Positions 6,098 through 21,149 of a stretch of DNA of 24,132 nt are shown one piece after another. Each line of letters opens with the position of its first letter. Within the stretch, counting starts at the first letter, position 1. The DNA comes from a virus, in IMG/VR virus record IMGVR_UViG_3300044733_002328, positions 1 through 24,132 of that record; one strand, 5' to 3'. The position numbers were made by a program, and so were the translations under genes. The notes beneath the pieces were generated by a model, which searched no databases, had not been told where the DNA came from, and worked only from the letters and a program-made list of their open reading frames with translations.

Positions 6098-6946
6098 ATG
6101 ATTATCTATAAAATAACTAACAATCTTAATAATAAAATCTATATCGGTCAAGATAGAAATAATAACCCATCTTACTTCGGAAGTGGTAAAAAAATACAAA
6201 GAGCCATAAAAAAATATGGTAAAGAAAATTTTGTAAAAGAAATTTTAGAAGAGTGTGTTGATGAAAATCATATGAATGAAAGAGAAGTTTACTGGATATT
6301 AAAATATAATAGTCAAGATAGAAAAATTGGTTATAATATAAGTAATGGTGGTAAAGAGGGTGACAGACAAATAGGTCAAGACATTACTAAAAACGGAATT
6401 TATAATTATTGGGTTGAAAAACACGGTCAGGAAGAAGCTGATATTAGAAAAAAACAACAAATTGAAAAAATCATAAAACATAACAAGGAAAACGGCACAG
6501 AACTAACTAAAAAAGGTCGTTATAGTTTATGGTTAGAAAAATATGGTAAAGAAGAGGCCGATAGAAGACATTTTGAATGGAGATTAAAAATATCACAACA
6601 TCAGCAATATAAATTAGAGAATGGGTGGAAGCATACTGACGAAGCCAAAGAAAAAATATCAAAGGCGGGTAAAGGTAGGAAACTATCTGAAGAAACAAAA
6701 AATAAAATGAGAAAACCTAAACCAAAAGGGTTTTCAGAAAAACTATCAAAATTGAAAAAAGGTGTGTCAACAGGATCATCAAAAAAAAGATTACAGGTTT
6801 TACAATTTGATTTAAATGGTAATTTACTTTATACTTGGGATAGTATAACAGAAGTTGAAAAACAATTAAAAATATTCAATATATCTGCGGTATGTAAAGG
6901 AAAACAAGAAACCGCTGGTGGTTATAAATGGGAATATAAAAAATAA
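6098..6946 (+). CDS. GIY-YIG homing endonuclease with NUMOD repeats
   Basis: The product has 282 residues. Residues 2-17 are the GIY-YIG core (IIYKITNNLNNKIYIG), with R35 and the NERE segment around E61-E63 as the expected catalytic Arg and Glu. DNA-binding repeats follow. Two copies of a Y-x-x-W-x-E-K-x-G-x-E-E-A-D module lie at about 102-116 and 142-156. NUMOD3-like helices with K-L-S-E-E-T-K-N-K-M are at about 180-222, and a NUMOD1-like helix-turn-helix is at about 232-280. Such enzymes cut a target in a neighbouring allele and drive their own spread. It sits five bases before thyA, the classic phage homing target, and is not inside an intron that I can see. Confidence 0.9.
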   Translation: MIIYKITNNLNNKIYIGQDRNNNPSYFGSGKKIQRAIKKYGKENFVKEILEECVDENHMNEREVYWILKYNSQDRKIGYNISNGGKEGDRQIGQDITKNGIYNYWVEKHGQEEADIRKKQQIEKIIKHNKENGTELTKKGRYSLWLEKYGKEEADRRHFEWRLKISQHQQYKLENGWKHTDEAKEKISKAGKGRKLSEETKNKMRKPKPKGFSEKLSKLKKGVSTGSSKKRLQVLQFDLNGNLLYTWDSITEVEKQLKIFNISAVCKGKQETAGGYKWEYKK

Positions 6947-6951
6947 CGAAA

Positions 6952-8046
6952 ATGAATAATTTAGACAAACAATACCAAGATTTACTTCAAGATATTTTGG
7001 ATAATGGGGTAAAAAAAGAAACAAGAAATGGAGGAACCATCAGTGTTTTTGGTCGTCAGATCAGACACAACATGAGTGAAGGATTTCCTTTACTCACAAC
7101 CAAGAAAATGTTTTGGAAAGGAATTGTAACTGAATTGATTTGGTTCCTACGTGGTGATACGAACATTAAATACCTTATAGATAATGATTGTCATATTTGG
7201 GACGGTGATGCTTATAAGAACTACGGTCAAAAGATTATCTCTGGAGGTTACCAAAATTTAGTTGCAATAGGATGGCCTAGTACACAAGAAGAGTTCATCA
7301 ACAAAATCAAAACAGATGATGAGTTTGCTAAGAAGTGGGGAGATTTAGGTCCTGTGTATGGTAGACAATGGAGAGCGTGGGGTGGCTTTGATAAAAAACC
7401 TTCAGGATGGAATCATGGGGCTGTTACTCATTTTTCTGAAGTGCCTAAACTTGACCAGATAAAAAATCTTATTCACGACCTTAAAACAAATCCTGATAGC
7501 CGAAGATTGATGGTTACAGCTTGGAACCCATCGGAATTGGACCAGATGACTCTTCCACCTTGTCATTATGGATTTCAAATTTATACAAGAGAGTTCAGTT
7601 TACAGGAAAGAAAAGACATATATGATAAATCGTCTTATGTTAAAGATATTTTTCCGACAGATGAAAATGGATGGAATAGTTTATTCAATGATTGTAGTAT
7701 ACCAACCAGGGCAATCTCTTTAATGTTCAATATGAGAAGCAATGATGTTCCGCTCGGGCTTCCATTTAATTTGGCTTCATATGGGTTACTTTTGATGATA
7801 TTGGCAAAAGAGGTTAATATGGTACCTGAAGAATTGATTTCAAATATGGGAGATTGTCACATATATCTAAATCAAATTGATGGTGTGAAAGAACAATTAA
7901 CAAGAGAACCATTTGAATTACCAACTCTTAATCAGTTCCCCACCTATGAAGGTTCAAGACCATCAATAGAATCTTATACTATTGGCGATTTCACACTTAA
8001 AAATTACAAATCACACCCAAGTATAAAAATGCCACTTTCTAACTAA
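6952..8046 (+). CDS. thyA: Thymidylate synthase, long phage type
   Basis: This enzyme makes dTMP from dUMP with methylene-tetrahydrofolate. The product has 364 residues against 264 in E. coli. Extra segments lie between I-W-D-G-D-A-Y-K and D-L-G-P-V-Y-G (about 86-131) and after the catalytic region (about 211-255). Core motifs are intact: P-D-S-R-R at 181-185, the nucleophile in L-P-P-C-H-Y-G-F-Q (Cys204), R-S-N-D-V-P-L-G-L-P-F-N (262-273), and G-D-C-H-I-Y-L-N near 310. The frame is uninterrupted, so there is no intron here. It lies between two GIY-YIG genes. It would raise thymidine supply for phage replication. Confidence 0.97.
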   Translation: MNNLDKQYQDLLQDILDNGVKKETRNGGTISVFGRQIRHNMSEGFPLLTTKKMFWKGIVTELIWFLRGDTNIKYLIDNDCHIWDGDAYKNYGQKIISGGYQNLVAIGWPSTQEEFINKIKTDDEFAKKWGDLGPVYGRQWRAWGGFDKKPSGWNHGAVTHFSEVPKLDQIKNLIHDLKTNPDSRRLMVTAWNPSELDQMTLPPCHYGFQIYTREFSLQERKDIYDKSSYVKDIFPTDENGWNSLFNDCSIPTRAISLMFNMRSNDVPLGLPFNLASYGLLLMILAKEVNMVPEELISNMGDCHIYLNQIDGVKEQLTREPFELPTLNQFPTYEGSRPSIESYTIGDFTLKNYKSHPSIKMPLSN

Positions 8047-8101: not shown

Positions 8102-8935
8102 ATGAAGAAATTTTTAGTTTATGAAATAAAAAACAACATTAATGGTAAATCTTATGTCGGACAATATAGTGGATTATCATTTGAAAAATATTTTGGGAGT
8201 GGAAAGTTGATTAAGTTAGCCATAAAAAAATATGGGTTAGAAAATTTCTCTAAAACTATTTTAGAAGAGTGTTCTAATAAAGATGAGTTGAATGAAAAAG
8301 AAATTTTTTGGATTGATAAACTCAAAACAATTGCAAACGGCTATAATTTAACTGAAGGTGGCACTGGTGGAGATTTATCTGAATTTATTAAGTATGATGA
8401 GAATTGGGTTGAAAACCAAAGACTCTCAACAAAAAAGTATTGGGACAATATCAGTGATGATGAAAGAAAAAAAAGAAGTGAAAGTGTATCTGGCGAAAAA
8501 AATGGAATGTATGGTAAAGAAGGATTTTGGAAAGGTAAGAAAATACCTAAAGAAATTGTAAAAAAATCATTAGATAATAGAAGAAGTTATGATAAAGAAC
8601 AAAATCCTAATTGGAAGGGAGGTTTAACTTATGTCTATTGTGAATGTGGTAAAAGAATAGGTTACGGTCACACTCATTGTAATAAATGTAGACCAAGAAG
8701 TAATGACGATAATCCATTTTTTGGTAAACAACATTCGGAAGAAACTAAAAATAAGTTAAGTGAAATCAGAAAAGGAACTTATAATGGAGAACAGAATATA
8801 CCAATAATAATTGATGATGTTGAATACCGTTCTGCTGGTGAGGCATCCAAAATACTTAATCTACCTATGGCAACGATAAGATGGAGGGTTTTAAGTAAAA
8901 ATAAAAAATTTGACAATTACAAATACAAAGATTAA
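8102..8935 (+). CDS. Second GIY-YIG homing endonuclease, with a zinc-finger-like insert
   Basis: The product has 277 residues. Residues 6-21 (VYEIKNNINGKSYVGQ) form the GIY-YIG core, and the NEKEIFW segment around E65-E67 supplies the expected catalytic Glu. The middle has NUMOD-type pieces (NPNWKGG near 168), a four-cysteine cluster C180-x-C182 with C193-x-x-C196 that probably binds zinc, and a NUMOD3 repeat (NPFFGKQHSEETKNKLSEI). It ends in a helix-turn-helix-like segment (SAGEASKILNLPMATIRWRV). The core resembles the enzyme upstream of thyA, but the DNA-binding parts differ, so the two probably cut different sites. Confidence 0.9.
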   Translation: MKKFLVYEIKNNINGKSYVGQYSGLSFEKYFGSGKLIKLAIKKYGLENFSKTILEECSNKDELNEKEIFWIDKLKTIANGYNLTEGGTGGDLSEFIKYDENWVENQRLSTKKYWDNISDDERKKRSESVSGEKNGMYGKEGFWKGKKIPKEIVKKSLDNRRSYDKEQNPNWKGGLTYVYCECGKRIGYGHTHCNKCRPRSNDDNPFFGKQHSEETKNKLSEIRKGTYNGEQNIPIIIDDVEYRSAGEASKILNLPMATIRWRVLSKNKKFDNYKYKD

Positions 8936-14696: not shown

Positions 14697-15209
14697 ATGA
14701 ATAAGTTTGATTTAACCGAAAAATTGAAAGAAGAATTAAAAAAAAGAAATCTTTGGGAACAAGAAGATGATGAAGATAATGATGATAATGAGTCTGATGA
14801 TAATCAAGATGACGAAGATTCAGACGAAGATTCAGAAAATCATAACGAAGATTTCTGTGAAATGGTTTGTCAGTTATTACACTCACAAACACAAATTCAT
14901 ATTTTCCATTTAGGGACCAAATCATATGCCGAACATAAAGCATTACAGGGTTATTACGAAGGTATTGATGCTTTAACTGATGGTCTAATTGAATCTTATC
15001 AGGGTAAATATGGTCTTTTAACAAATTACAAATCATATAAGAATCAATCATACAAAAACAAAAACCAAGTATTAAAATATTTTACAAGTTTATTAAATAT
15101 GATTGAAGAAAAAAGAGAATCGGTTGAGGACTCTTACATCCAAAACCAAATTGATACGGTTCAAGAATTGATTTATTCAACAATGTATAAGTTGAAATTT
15201 CTTAACTAA
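14697..15209 (+). CDS. DUF5856 ferritin-like protein with acidic insert
   Basis: The product has 170 residues. After a helix (LTEKLKEELKKRNLW) comes a run of almost only Asp, Glu, Asn and Ser at about 21-51. From about 54 it matches DUF5856, a Dps/ferritin-like family of large phages: L-L-H-S-Q-T-Q-I-H-I-F-H-L, K-S-Y-A-E-H-K-A-L, Y-Y-E-G-I-D-A-L-T-D-G-L-I-E and Y-Q-G-K-Y-G. The His and Glu residues fit a helical-bundle metal site. Metal storage or protection of DNA is inferred from the fold relation. The N-terminal L-W-E-Q is a weak candidate for the L-x-E site of the later leader genes. It ends tail to tail with the minus-strand gene, overlapping by four bases. Confidence 0.8.
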   Translation: MNKFDLTEKLKEELKKRNLWEQEDDEDNDDNESDDNQDDEDSDEDSENHNEDFCEMVCQLLHSQTQIHIFHLGTKSYAEHKALQGYYEGIDALTDGLIESYQGKYGLLTNYKSYKNQSYKNKNQVLKYFTSLLNMIEEKRESVEDSYIQNQIDTVQELIYSTMYKLKFLN

Positions 15210-16024
15210 TCTATTTCGTAAATATTATTTATTACATTCAGAGGATCTCCTTCACAATCACCTTCATAATTTCGGCATAGTTGGTCGACTTCAATCTTGT
15301 CGTCAACCTCACTGATATCAAGTAATATTGGTTCTGAATGATATATCATATTAACTTGATCATCGTTCAAGAATGTATCTACAGGTAATGATTTAAGTTC
15401 AGGGTTCAAACCAAAAAAATCAATTTCATCTTCTGTATAGTATTCATCACTTGATTCATAGTCACCATTTCCATCACAATAATCACAATCAACTTGTCCA
15501 TAACCATCACATCTATCACAGCCAAATTCACCTTTACCATCACACCAAGAACATTCAATTTCACCATTTCCTTGACAATCTGAACATGGTTCACCATCTA
15601 CTTCACCAGATCCATCACAGTTTCTACATTCTTCAGTTCCATTTCCTGAACATCTATCACAATCTACATCACCACTACCATCACATGTGCTACAATATTC
15701 AGTTCCTGATCCATCACATTCATGACAAGTTATATCACGATAACCCAAATCTCTATAATGATACATTCCGATGTTTATAAGATTACCACGAACTTTAGAA
15801 AAAGAAGATTCAATATCTTTAGTTCGTGAAAAGAAGTAAACCATAAACGCGATCTCTACTTTTTCTATTCTTTTAACATTCTTCAAAAGAAGTTTCAATA
15901 GTTCATCACTATTGATATGACTCATAATTTGTTGAACATTCATATCATTATCACCATGTTCATCAACTAAATGATTATAAACTTGTTTTGTGAATACTTT
16001 ATATTTTGAAGGTTGTAAGGACAT
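15206..16024 (-). CDS. Orphan DnaJ-type zinc-finger protein with eight CxxCxGxG motifs
   Basis: The product has 272 residues and is the only minus-strand gene in the window. Residues 100-187 hold eight CxxCxGxG motifs, starting at C100, C111, C122, C133, C147, C158, C169 and C180: a spacing of 11 residues with a single 14. DnaJ has four such motifs forming two zinc sites, so this would bind about four zinc ions. There is no J domain; the N-terminal 95 residues are helical and unrecognised, and the C-terminus is acidic. A role as a chaperone or protein-interaction module is inferred from the zinc domain only. A copy of the phage promoter motif lies six bases upstream on its strand. Confidence 0.88.
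   Translation of the reverse strand: MSLQPSKYKVFTKQVYNHLVDEHGDNDMNVQQIMSHINSDELLKLLLKNVKRIEKVEIAFMVYFFSRTKDIESSFSKVRGNLINIGMYHYRDLGYRDITCHECDGSGTEYCSTCDGSGDVDCDRCSGNGTEECRNCDGSGEVDGEPCSDCQGNGEIECSWCDGKGEFGCDRCDGYGQVDCDYCDGNGDYESSDEYYTEDEIDFFGLNPELKSLPVDTFLNDDQVNMIYHSEPILLDISEVDDKIEVDQLCRNYEGDCEGDPLNVINNIYEID
15464..15727 (-). repeat. 33-bp coding repeats of the CxxCxGxG array
   Basis: Eight related units encode the zinc motifs, most 33 bases long and one 42. On the plus strand they read as recurring CCATCACA and CCATTTCC segments. Such an array can gain or lose units by recombination. Confidence 0.8.
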
Positions 16025-17465: not shown

Positions 17466-18329
17466 ATGAACAAGTTAATTAAAGAAGAAATACTAAGAAT
17501 AAATGAGTTAATGAATACAAAAATTCTTAACGAATCGGAATATAAAGAATGCTCAAGATTTTCAGATTCTCCACAGAAATTACTTGTTTGTAGAAAAATC
17601 GCATCACTTAAAAGTTGGTTACACAAAGACGATGGATTTGGAATGAAAAATGTTATAAATAATAAAATTGAAGATTTAAAAACCGACATTCCTCAAAACT
17701 TAAAACAACAATTTATTCAAGGGGCAAACTTATTGTATTCACTAAATAAAATAAATGAAAGACAAAGGGATTACTTTATAGATAATAAAGTTAATTCAGC
17801 TAAATTGGTATACATAAACGGTGATTGGCAATTAATTAATAAGTTAAACACAAACTATTCTGATTTGGCAGAAATGTTAACAGATATGATTTATAAAGGT
17901 GGAGATAGGGCTAGACCAATAATTCAAAATATTATTAGAGATCCTAAAGCTGCTTTGTCATCAATACAACCCAAAATAATAGAATTAGTTGATAAGTATT
18001 TTGAGGATCCTAATGTGTTAATTGACTATACAAAAAATATAGAAAGATCAACATCTATAGGTGAAATTGCTGAAAAACAAGTTGAAGATAAGTTAATCAC
18101 AAAAGGTTTTACAACCGATTACGCTGGAGGTAATGGCGATCTAATCGATATGTCTTTTGGGACAGATTTAATCATGACATCACCGGAATACGGGACAAAA
18201 ACAATCCAAGTAAAAAATTCTGAAAAGGCTTGGAATAAGTCTGATGAATATCCTTACGTTGATTGGGTTATAATTTCAAACCCTTTTACCATTTATGATA
18301 ATAAAACAAAGGAAGTTGTTGAATTATGA
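17466..18329 (+). CDS. Leader-peptide protein with PD-(D/E)XK nuclease-like domain
   Basis: The product has 287 residues. Residues 1-24 form a leader (LIKEEILRINELM) ending in I-L-N-E-S, the same L-x-E-S ending as the next genes but a different body. Residues 25-190 are helical and unrecognised. Residues 195-270 look like a PD-(D/E)XK nuclease core: S-I-G-E-I-A-E (E200, E203), G-F-x-x-D-Y-A-G-G-N-G-D, D228 or D234, and I-Q-V-K-N-S (Q248, K250), a variant with Q-x-K in place of E-x-K. If the leader targets the head, this would be an injected nuclease acting on host or rival DNA. The domain call rests on motif order alone. Confidence 0.7.
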   Translation: MNKLIKEEILRINELMNTKILNESEYKECSRFSDSPQKLLVCRKIASLKSWLHKDDGFGMKNVINNKIEDLKTDIPQNLKQQFIQGANLLYSLNKINERQRDYFIDNKVNSAKLVYINGDWQLINKLNTNYSDLAEMLTDMIYKGGDRARPIIQNIIRDPKAALSSIQPKIIELVDKYFEDPNVLIDYTKNIERSTSIGEIAEKQVEDKLITKGFTTDYAGGNGDLIDMSFGTDLIMTSPEYGTKTIQVKNSEKAWNKSDEYPYVDWVIISNPFTIYDNKTKEVVEL

Positions 18330-18886
18330 AAATAATAATATCAGAACACCAATTTAATTTTCTTAACGAAAGTGATGTTAATAGAAATATTGATGCTATC
18401 AAAAAGTATTGGAAAAGTGAATTGAAAAAAGGAAATCAAATTAGATTTAATAAAGACGAACTTGAATATTGGGGTATTATTAAAACTTCAGATGAAATAC
18501 ATGCTCAATTAGCATTTCAGATATTAGTTGGAGATGAGGAGTTCGCTAAAAAATTCATAAACAAATTATTAAATAAAACATTTTCAACAAAAGACTTTAG
18601 TGATAGAATTGTAGGTGGTTATGATTTTGAATGGATTATTACTCAAATGAATTATCAAGATTTTGATTTCTTTTTGTATGGTCAAACACTACCAGGTGGA
18701 ACTGTTAGTCTAATTATGATGGATGGTAGAAATCTGACTTTACAGGAAGCTTTAGAAGACGAAGATATTGGTTGGGAAATTCAAGAGGAAGTTAACAACG
18801 TTGTTCAGGACTGTATGAACGAAATAATTTTACCGGCCACAGGTTATGATGTAGAAGTTCCGGTTATTTATATTGCAGAAGAATGA
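18326..18886 (+). CDS. Leader-peptide protein, body of unknown function (186 residues)
   Basis: Residues 1-16 are the leader MKIIISEHQFNFLNES, with the expected cut after Glu15 in L-N-E. The body is acidic: a helical start (NIDAIKKYWKSELKK), a central segment with D-E-I-H-A-Q-L-A-F-Q-I-L-V-G, aromatic strands (DFEWIITQMNYQDFDFFLYG), and a C-terminal helix with V-P-V-I-Y-I-A-E-E. No family is recognised for the body. It overlaps both neighbours by ATGA, so it is translated as part of the cassette. Confidence 0.75.
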   Translation: MKIIISEHQFNFLNESDVNRNIDAIKKYWKSELKKGNQIRFNKDELEYWGIIKTSDEIHAQLAFQILVGDEEFAKKFINKLLNKTFSTKDFSDRIVGGYDFEWIITQMNYQDFDFFLYGQTLPGGTVSLIMMDGRNLTLQEALEDEDIGWEIQEEVNNVVQDCMNEIILPATGYDVEVPVIYIAEE

Positions 18887-19269
18887 AAATAATAATTTCA
18901 GAACGACAACAAAAGTTATTAACCGAGTCAAAAAAACTTGAGTCGGCACAAAATCTTATTGATCAGGCATTTGAGGAATTAAGAGAAAACTGTGAAAAAA
19001 ATTGGGTTGAACAATATGCTTGTGATCAAATGGAAACCGTTGAAGAGATTAAAGTTGTTGCATCTGAAAAAGGATCAGCGACCACAAGAGGTCAAAAAAC
19101 TAATTTTTGGTTGATTGAAGTTGACATATATTATTCATCATTAGGATATACACCTTTTGAAGATTTTATTTATCAAATCCAATGGGAAGTTAGAGAAATT
19201 GTCGGATCAAGAAATATTATTATAACCATCCGAGGTACTATAAACTCAAACAAAGACCTAAACTGGTAA
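18883..19269 (+). CDS. Leader-peptide protein, paralogue of the 20155 gene
   Basis: Residues 1-16 are MKIIISERQQKLLTES, with L-T-E as candidate cut site. The following K-K-L-E-S-A-Q-N-L-I-D-Q-A-F-E matches K-Q-I-D-S-V-Q-N-L-V-D-M-A-V-E of the gene at 20155, and the rest runs parallel: a cysteine pair region, a V-K-V/L-K-V-L strand, then F-E-D-F and V-x-x-I-V/I-G-S/T. The two arose by duplication. The body has 112 residues after the leader, and its fold and function are unrecognised. The stop shares one base with the next ATG (TAATG). Confidence 0.75.
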   Translation: MKIIISERQQKLLTESKKLESAQNLIDQAFEELRENCEKNWVEQYACDQMETVEEIKVVASEKGSATTRGQKTNFWLIEVDIYYSSLGYTPFEDFIYQIQWEVREIVGSRNIIITIRGTINSNKDLNW

Positions 19270-19712
19270 TGAAAATAATAATATCAGAATCACAATATAA
19301 TTTACTTTTAGAATCAAAGTTGAAACAAAATCTTAAACAGGAAATTAAAGATTTTGGAGTAAAAGATACTGCTGAACTTGTTAATGGTTTCGATAATTTA
19401 ATGGAAATTTTAAACATAAATTCTCCGATGGATTTTTTACATTTGTTTGATGACTTGGATGTTGTTCAAAGTGAAATGGACCCTGATTGGACTTTATTTC
19501 GATATAAACCAAAACATAATTTGATGGTTCACAATAGAAAAAATAGAACTGTTTTCATTAATTACGAAGAAATTTGGAAACCTTTATTTGATACTGGTCT
19601 TTTCGATCCTGACATAAAGGAACTTACAAAAGAGTGGTTGTCTAGTGTCTACAACTTAAGGGGAGTCACAACCGAAAGGTTTTATCAAGCTTCTCCATGG
19701 TTAGTTGTCTAG
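19269..19712 (+). CDS. Leader-peptide protein with possible frameshifted C-terminus
   Basis: Residues 1-16 are MKIIISESQYNLLLES, cut site L-L-E. The body (147 residues in all) has D-W-T-L-F-R-Y-K-P-K-H-N-L-M-V and I-N-Y-E-E-I-W-K-P-L, then K-E-W-L-S-S-V-Y-N-L. Near the end an 18-base repeat of the DNA for L-S-S-V-Y-N occurs again in another frame. Read in that frame, the tail would be L-S-S-V-Y-N-L-K-K ending at 19734, three bases before the next ATG. A shift of four inserted bases near 19698-19704 would explain this, so the present ending P-W-L-V-V may be a truncation. The family of the body is unknown. Confidence 0.72.
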   Translation: MKIIISESQYNLLLESKLKQNLKQEIKDFGVKDTAELVNGFDNLMEILNINSPMDFLHLFDDLDVVQSEMDPDWTLFRYKPKHNLMVHNRKNRTVFINYEEIWKPLFDTGLFDPDIKELTKEWLSSVYNLRGVTTERFYQASPWLVV

Positions 19713-19721
19713 TGTCTACAA
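19637..19721. repeat. Pair of 18-bp perfect direct repeats
   Basis: GTTGTCTAGTGTCTACAA occurs at 19637-19654 and 19704-19721; similarity continues into (C/T)TTAA. In the first copy it is read as L-S-S-V-Y-N; in the second it falls one base out of phase and supplies the stop codon TAG of the gene. Confidence 0.9.
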
Positions 19722-19737
19722 TTTAAAAAAATAGAAT

Positions 19738-20139
19738 ATGAAAATAATAATTACAGAATCACAAGTTAGTCTTCTCAAAGAAAATTCCATTGTGGATATG
19801 GATCTTCAACAACTATATGACAGGGCCATAAAATTAAAAAAAGTGGTTTCTAAAAATGTCCAAAGAGAGTTGGAAGATTATTCTTGGTTTGATGGATTAC
19901 AGGTAAGTATTGATAGAGATTGGGGAGGACTACCTTATTATTTTTTTAACATAAAAACAAATTTGTCCCTAACAGAGGATGAATTTTATAGTCAAGAATT
20001 AGGTGATGAAATTTATGATAAAATTGGTGATGTTTTTGGTCACTTTTTTCCAGAGGTTAATAAAAATACACAATATAACTTAACTGGTGTTTGGGATGCT
20101 TCTATAACAGACAGACATGGTTATGTAACTCACATTTAG
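19738..20139 (+). CDS. Leader-peptide protein, body of unknown function (133 residues)
   Basis: Residues 1-16 are MKIIITESQVSLLKEN, with candidate cut site L-K-E. The body begins with a helix (MDLQQLYDRAIKLKKVV), then beta-like W-F-D-G-L-Q-V-S-I-D and Y-Y-F-F-N-I-K-T-N-L, a D-E-F-Y-S-Q-E-L helix, and a C-terminal W-D-A-S-I-T-D-R-H-G. I recognise no family. It stands 25 bases after the previous stop, or three if the alternative end of that gene is right. Confidence 0.75.
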   Translation: MKIIITESQVSLLKENSIVDMDLQQLYDRAIKLKKVVSKNVQRELEDYSWFDGLQVSIDRDWGGLPYYFFNIKTNLSLTEDEFYSQELGDEIYDKIGDVFGHFFPEVNKNTQYNLTGVWDASITDRHGYVTHI

Positions 20140-20154
20140 AACTATTTATTTAAT

Positions 20155-20844
20155 ATGAAAATCATCATTTCAGAAGATCAACAAAAAGTATTACTTGAAT
20201 CAAAACAAATTGATTCAGTTCAAAATCTTGTTGATATGGCGGTTGAAGATTATGTTGAAGGTTGTTCTAGAAGACATGCATTTAGAAATCTTGAACTTGC
20301 ACTTTGTAAAGGGTTCAAGAACGGAACAACAAAACTTAAAGTTTTAGAAGTAAAAAAAATACACGACCATTATGATGTAAAACTTTCTATACACACAGAT
20401 CAAGAATGGTTTCAAAGAGCGGACTTTCAAGATTTTGAAATCACATTAATACTTAAAGTTGCAAATATAATAGGAACACACAAATATGGGTTTGATATTA
20501 AGGACATGGAATTAAATGATCGTGATGAAGAAGTGATTTCTGAAAGTCGTGAAATGAGTACTAAACTAAGACGAAGATTTAGTGAACTTGAAAAAATTGG
20601 AGAGTCAATAGAGTATCAAACTGAAATACAAGATCCATGTGATTTTGAGGATGAGAATGACTATGCTGACTATTGTATTGGACAAGGACTTTATTTTTAT
20701 TACAACGATGATGAAGATGAAGACTATGAATATCCACCAGACGAAATGGTTGAGGTTAGAGATGAGGTAGAAGAATATTTAGAAGAAAAATACCACAATT
20801 ATTTAGTAGATATTTATAATGACTTAGTAGAAAACTGTAACTAA
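20155..20844 (+). CDS. Leader-peptide protein, longer paralogue with acidic tail
   Basis: Residues 1-16 are MKIIISEDQQKVLLES, cut site L-L-E. Residues 17-120 align by eye with the product of the gene at 18883 (D-S-V-Q-N-L-V-D-M-A). An added C-terminal part includes E-E-V-I-S-E-S-R-E-M-S-T-K-L-R-R-R, D-P-C-D-F-E-D-E-N-D-Y-A-D-Y-C, and an acidic run (NDDEDEDYEYPPDE). The V-I-S-E-S inside is a second place that resembles the leader ending, so the protein might be cut into two. A partial copy of the AT promoter motif (TATTTATTTAAT, 20143-20154) touches its ATG. Confidence 0.75.
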   Translation: MKIIISEDQQKVLLESKQIDSVQNLVDMAVEDYVEGCSRRHAFRNLELALCKGFKNGTTKLKVLEVKKIHDHYDVKLSIHTDQEWFQRADFQDFEITLILKVANIIGTHKYGFDIKDMELNDRDEEVISESREMSTKLRRRFSELEKIGESIEYQTEIQDPCDFEDENDYADYCIGQGLYFYYNDDEDEDYEYPPDEMVEVRDEVEEYLEEKYHNYLVDIYNDLVENCN

Positions 20845-21149
20845 TGAAAATACTATTAACAGAAAAACAGGCCGATAGAATATTCAACGAAAAGATTGAA
20901 TGCGAAAAGTGCGAACACTCTTGGAAAAAAGAAAATGATGACAAACATCCATTTCTTTGTCATGATTGTGGGTGGGACCAAAAAAAAGGTCTTTACGATA
21001 AAGAAAACTTATTTAAGTTTTGGAAAGGAAAATTATCTAAAGAACCAATTGAAGAAAAGTGGTCTGAAAAATATAAAAGATCAATCAACTGTAATAACCC
21101 AAAAGGTTTTAGTCAAAAGGCTCATTGTCAAGGGAGAAAGAAAAAATAA
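20844..21149 (+). CDS. Leader-peptide zinc-ribbon protein with GFSQKAHC tail
   Basis: The product has 101 residues. The leader is MKILLTEKQADRIFNE, one residue longer and more diverged (F-N-E). A zinc ribbon follows: C20-x-x-C23-E-H-S-W and P-F-L-C39-H-D-C42-G-W-D. The C-terminus N-C83-N-N-P-K-G-F-S-Q-K-A-H-C95-Q-G-R-K-K-K is a tail I recall from unrelated proteins of large phages, and its two cysteines with His94 might bind metal. Role unknown; the tail may be a second targeting or docking signal. It overlaps the preceding stop by one base and ends just before the sugar cluster. Confidence 0.8.
   Translation: MKILLTEKQADRIFNEKIECEKCEHSWKKENDDKHPFLCHDCGWDQKKGLYDKENLFKFWKGKLSKEPIEEKWSEKYKRSINCNNPKGFSQKAHCQGRKKK

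Follow-up and report, generated by a model that had tools for sequence, protein, structure and literature searches.

Short N-terminal leaders shared by unrelated proteins of T4-type phages as candidate capsid-targeting propeptides

Why should genes whose products have little else in common begin with one and the same short peptide? The question is raised by seven plus-strand genes (17466-21149) in a stretch of viral DNA of 24,132 nucleotides, hereafter the window, which is positions 1 to 24,132 of IMGVR_UViG_3300044733_002328, a separate 24-kb viral record. Six adjacent genes of this cassette (18326-21149) have the leader MKI[IL][IL][ST]ExQ...[LF]xE in common, and we consider it likely that this and several unlike leaders are capsid-targeting propeptides that follow the logic of T4 with other sequences, and that would bind the prohead core, be removed by the prohead protease and leave their bodies to be packaged and injected. 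The genes, called as simple longest open reading frames (ORFs), are given below with one tentative addition; leader classes are listed further on.

17466..18329, + strand: gene 1, 287 amino acids, class D leader MNKLIKEEILRINELMNTKILNE at 17466-17534, PD-(D/E)XK nuclease-like body
18326..18886, + strand: gene 2, class A leader MKIIISEHQFNFLNE at 18326-18370, uncharacterised body of a 21-member leader-bearing family
18883..19269, + strand: gene 3, class A leader MKIIISERQQKLLTE at 18883-18927, uncharacterised body of a 12-member family
19269..19712, + strand: gene 4, class A leader MKIIISESQYNLLLE at 19269-19313, relatives in the same phage with class B and class C leaders
19738..20139, + strand: gene 5, class A leader MKIIITESQVSLLKE at 19738-19782, uncharacterised body
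20155..20844, + strand: gene 6, class A leader MKIIISEDQQKVLLE at 20155-20199, gene 3-like start and a second unit, fused
20844..21149, + strand: gene 7, diverged class A leader MKILLTEKQADRIFNE at 20844-20891, zinc-ribbon body
14697..15209, + strand: tentative further member, MNKFDLTEKLKEELKKRNLWE followed by Q, ahead of a DUF5856 body (DUF5856 E 1e-21)

The first-pass annotation had placed seven ORFs here, six of them with a shared leader, and this was borne out: five window genes match ATGAARATHATHATHWSNGARNNNCAR exactly, the reversed pattern used as a control matches none, and the sixth class A leader of the cassette, that of gene 7, reads MKILLTEKQADRIFNEK. The seventh gene was said to have a different leader with the same L-N-E-S ending, and that of gene 1, MNKLIKEEILRINELMNTKILNE/S, is indeed distinct from those of genes 2-7 and ends LNE/S (the slash, here and below, follows the Glu that closes a leader), with LNES or LITES kept in eight homologues. 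Counted to this Glu the leaders have 15-16 residues in genes 2-7 and 23 in gene 1, and they end in L-x-E in six of the seven genes and in F-N-E in gene 7. The homologue of the tentative member in another contig, G042, begins MDKLTLTKEQLFKVMHLNE/Q (N-termini compared by eye). It had also been claimed that what follows the leaders is unrelated bar one pair, and this stands, the pair being genes 3 and 6 (18883 and 20155), which are alike over residues 1-39 only (59%, E 2e-12). Gene 6 (20155-20844) has a decayed internal leader, EEVISESREMSTKLRRR, ahead of its second unit, and L005 and L050 have its C-terminal half as a free gene behind a leader of its own; from this arrangement it looks like a fusion of two units.

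A 140-kb contig, G027, overlaps the window with 99.994% identity across 16,280 bases in a sequence comparison, and the two are therefore taken to be the same phage. Its head module consists of terminase, portal, S77 protease (E 8e-24), scaffold-like protein and gp23-type capsid protein, so that the refuting condition named in the first-pass annotation, a genome with no prohead protease, fails: a gp21-type protease is present together with a capsid protein whose predicted site matches. The lack of a protease inside the window was dismissed as evidence, as the window is only a 24-kb fragment and G027 encodes S77. The capsid proteins of the group have a putative site, ASxLINE/A, which is invariant among those listed, resembles the T4 site and sits where T4 gp23 is cut; because of this position the S77 protease probably cuts after [LI]-x-E. 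Inspection of G027 by eye gave approximately 35 genes with leaders, which belong to several classes, and the cassette, whilst real in its genes and leaders, is only a small part of this genome-wide set.

Beyond this phage, the class A pattern has at least 120 matches in IMG/VR, on bodies of every kind, and columns 10-16, which the search left free, are nevertheless conserved ([YLF] at 10, [KRN] at 11, [LI] at 13, E at 15 or 16), with the information per column falling to background past residue 16-17. In 65% of class A leaders the motif [LIVMF]xE begins at residue 13 or 14, as against 0-7% for other positions. When the 279 proteins with class A or B leaders, gathered from fetched related-phage sequence, were clustered by body, 118 clusters were obtained with no similarity between them at E 1e-3. 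Within the leaders codons vary synonymously (Ile ATA, ATT or ATC, Thr ACN, Leu TTR or CTN) whilst the amino acids stay, and the leader is therefore conserved at the protein level; a nucleotide-level element as the reason for the shared leader was rejected on the same grounds. The leader is virtually exclusive to phages: in cellular genomes (84,980; 257 Gb) there are 40 pattern matches and only one real leader gene, which encodes an M23-peptidase protein also present on a viral contig. That gene lies on a Prochlorococcus single-cell genome contig (L340, QCKH01000004.1, 83,794 bases), which is probably a captured phage contig and possibly came from an infected cell. Leaders of these types were not found described in the open-access literature searched, and a tblastn search of isolate phages with the short leader, a weak query at 20 amino acids, returned nothing.

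The leaders were sorted into the following classes, of which C-E were defined by eye and one regular expression:

Class A: the cassette leader, MKIII[ST]ExQ...
Class B: MKKIIRLTESDLTRIVRRVIKE
Class C: MRNLIKQILKEE, short
Class D: EEILRINELMxxxILNE
Class E: ITEDEKKRILxMHK

Unlike leaders are exchanged in front of the same body, as is predicted for a sorting signal that makes loose demands on sequence. The gene 4 body has a class A leader in the window, whilst its paralogue at G027:98208 begins with class B and that at G027:108502 with class C (kinship of this last paralogue judged by eye); class A and class C leaders precede a DHH-like body in G007 and G027 respectively, a DUF6576-like body follows either A or B, and zinc ribbons follow A or, in G042, C. 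In a family of sigma factors homology picks up right after the Glu (TIINE/GFDFD, HLISE/GFNFD and KILTE/DVDFD, the last internal, in a fusion). In G027, 14 proteins have a helix-plus-site core, [LIVM][LIV]xx[LIVF][LIV]xE, within residues 2-20, where shuffling predicts 1.1, and later bins contain 1, 0 and 1; the N-terminal figures are 19 against 1.7 for G007 and 16 against 2.4 for G016, with a control on half of the crAss001 genome (1 against 0.2) too small in number to inform. The simpler [LIV]xE, whose enrichment is confined to the N-termini of proteins, falls at residues 9-21 in 42% of G027 proteins and in 22% when shuffled. Chance similarity as the source of the shared leader was rejected on the reversed-pattern control, the column conservation and this enrichment over shuffles. 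The first-pass proposal that a conserved prefix of this kind is a sorting signal is strongly supported by the 118 unrelated bodies, the sharp end of conservation, the class exchange and the N-terminal enrichment.

As to where such a signal would send its bodies, the nearest model is T4, whose internal proteins are targeted into the prohead core by propeptides of 10-19 residues that gp21 removes after L/I-X-E (PMC9026906). In the mechanism we propose, the N-terminal part of the leader (MKIII[ST]ExQ in class A) and a short amphipathic helix would bind the assembling prohead core, so that the body fused behind would be enclosed in the prohead; the S77 protease would then cut after [LI]-x-E in most leaders, as is predicted for the capsid protein, and the body, loose inside the head, would be ejected along with the DNA. 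Like IPI-III and Alt of T4, the present proteins combine a short N-terminal prefix, unrelated bodies and, in most leaders, an [LI]-x-E ending with an S77 protease and a gp23-type capsid protein. Unlike in T4, the consensus sequences are MKIII[ST]ExQ..., LTESDL... and MRxLIKxILKEE instead of MKTYQEFIAEA, the candidates in one phage number about 35 and not a handful, there are several interchangeable classes, and packaging is predicted; the gene 1 leader, at 23 residues, is also slightly longer than the T4 range. Giant phages of the phiKZ/SPN3US type, in which a distant relative of gp21 processes many head proteins, cutting after x-x-E, and the ejected set is large (PMC9026906), resemble this system in having many different proteins and a gp21-related protease, with processing here predicted from the genes. 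They differ in that the protease here clearly belongs to the Pfam family of T4 gp21, the head module is of T4 type and the leaders are short and recurrent; a short shared leader in phiKZ/SPN3US-type phages is not described in the parts of PMC9026906 consulted.

Several observations weigh against capsid targeting with processing. About 17% of class A leaders are without [LIVMF]xE in residues 11-26, and relatives of the zinc-ribbon gene 7 read FND or FNN with the terminal E not conserved, so that the [L/F]-x-E ending of the first-pass annotation holds for all seven window genes but not throughout their kin. The leaders have no recognisable likeness to the T4 capsid targeting sequence MKTYQEFIAEA, and the class A and B patterns are without match in T4 (leaders taken from the T4 sequence record); on this ground the leaders, which may work like that sequence, are not filed as its homologues. 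In the AlphaFold2 model of gene 4 (predicted local distance difference test score, pLDDT, 90) one unbroken helix covers residues 7-29, and the predicted cut falls within it. Of 20 other S77 contigs, most of them partial, just 3 have class A or B leaders; leader-poor S77 contigs exist. Some bodies, such as HNH and a lysozyme with LysM, could work without packaging.

The missing sites and the gene 4 helix, which continues from the leader into the body, would also be expected of a docking tag that is not removed and serves some other phage assembly (tail, baseplate, replication or membrane complex), with [LI]xE merely capping an amphipathic helix; so would the retention of the first nine residues (MKIIITESQ) in family members where [LI]xE is lost or deleted. 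We regard such a tag as unlikely, given that conservation ends at the Glu, that unlike leaders converge on the ending of the putative site of the capsid protein and that three leader classes sit on one body family. Moreover in T4 targeting lies mainly in the first half of the propeptide, whilst the residues at its end serve processing, which Asp at position 10 stops without stopping targeting (PMC9026906); as targeting is possible there without processing, leaders without a site remain compatible with capsid targeting, and the retained nine residues suggest that the two halves are separable here too. That the leader is the start of one common fold was rejected by the 118 body types and, for gene 1, by an AlphaFold2 model with the leader unplaced (pLDDT ~50) and the C-terminal domain confident, and is left open locally for gene 4, on its model. 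Fold searches of the PDB and BFVD matched gene 4 to nothing informative; the Shiga-toxin rows, with E about 0.7 or worse and a template modelling score of about 0.3 or less, were discarded as noise. The C-terminal domain of gene 1 is PD-(D/E)XK-like: it has the motif GDLID...IQVK, and its top matches, which are weak, are restriction-type nucleases.

The leader-bearing bodies hit 20 Pfam families, most being without a recognised family. Confident identities are an extracytoplasmic function (ECF)-type sigma factor (E 4e-14), an M23 peptidase with a peptidoglycan-binding domain, a lysozyme with LysM and an alpha/beta hydrolase; matches to DHH (E 0.006) and a PARP-like domain (E 0.02) are weak. 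The ECF sigma factors, wall hydrolases and nuclease-like protein are consistent with a head-delivered set. Since the lysozyme and the sigma factor could also act in the infected cell, the leader might instead set the fate of proteins there, as a tag for stability, chaperones or regulated proteolysis with no relation to the virion; this seems quite improbable, as it leaves unexplained both the leader endings that resemble the putative site of the capsid protein and the presence of S77 in every leader-bearing record with gp23. Among 26 leader-bearing records S77 was found in 11 and gp23 in 10, all 10 of which also have S77; the large contigs G003, G004, G007 and G015 have no S77, which is uninformative because they also have no portal, terminase or intact capsid gene (a single weak capsid-like stretch occurs in G015). 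Least credible of all is a prefix without peptide function, arising at a shared 5' end by duplication and recombination, or as a translation-start element, since, common as tandem paralogues are (about nine gene 4 family copies in G016), synonymous variation is free whilst amino acids are conserved, leader classes replace each other on one body and the leader has spread through many diverged phages.

We lean, at slightly better than even, towards a wider claim: that modular, interchangeable address peptides of several classes serve a widespread group of large T4-type phages to bring unrelated proteins into the head, dozens of them per genome and sigma factors included. Class A leaders are found on ECF-type sigma factors at L074:2093-3100 (+), L101:6783-7346 (-) and L105:8111-8668 (-), which makes these candidate head-delivered transcription factors; in L074 a hydrophobic membrane-like domain is followed by a second internal leader-like stretch ending ILTE/D and then by the sigma factor, an order like that of a two-part precursor. 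Were the wider claim true, head-loaded sigma factors would divert host transcription as soon as infection begins, and the injected set could be recognised by its leader alone. The injected proteins of uncultured phages are almost unknown, because virion proteomics is needed, and a leader that can be read from sequence would supply lists of candidates for many T4-type phages together, as well as short tags testable for packaging chosen proteins in heads. A cultured phage in which the packaging prediction is testable is the isolate Flavobacterium phage immuto (NC_055915.1), which has S77 and gp23 and a related leader, SEQFxRMQxLAGIITES, in two genes, at 25061 and 111675.

Some further features of these genomes were recorded. 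The gene 4 family is expanded in G016, with five copies within 4 kb (G016:238754-242671; L144, L145) and about nine or more across this 296-kb contig. Gene 7 (20844-21149) ends in a C-terminal module, KYKxSINCNNPKGFSQKAHCQxRKK, as does a protein with a leader in a related phage (G032:140634-140861) that is otherwise unlike it. The sole long minus-strand gene of the region, 15206-16024 (-), encodes a protein with many CxxCxG repeats like a DnaJ zinc domain. Finally, a thymidylate synthase gene at 6952-8046 is flanked by two homing-endonuclease-like ORFs, 6098-6946 and 8102-8935 (GIY-YIG type by eye).
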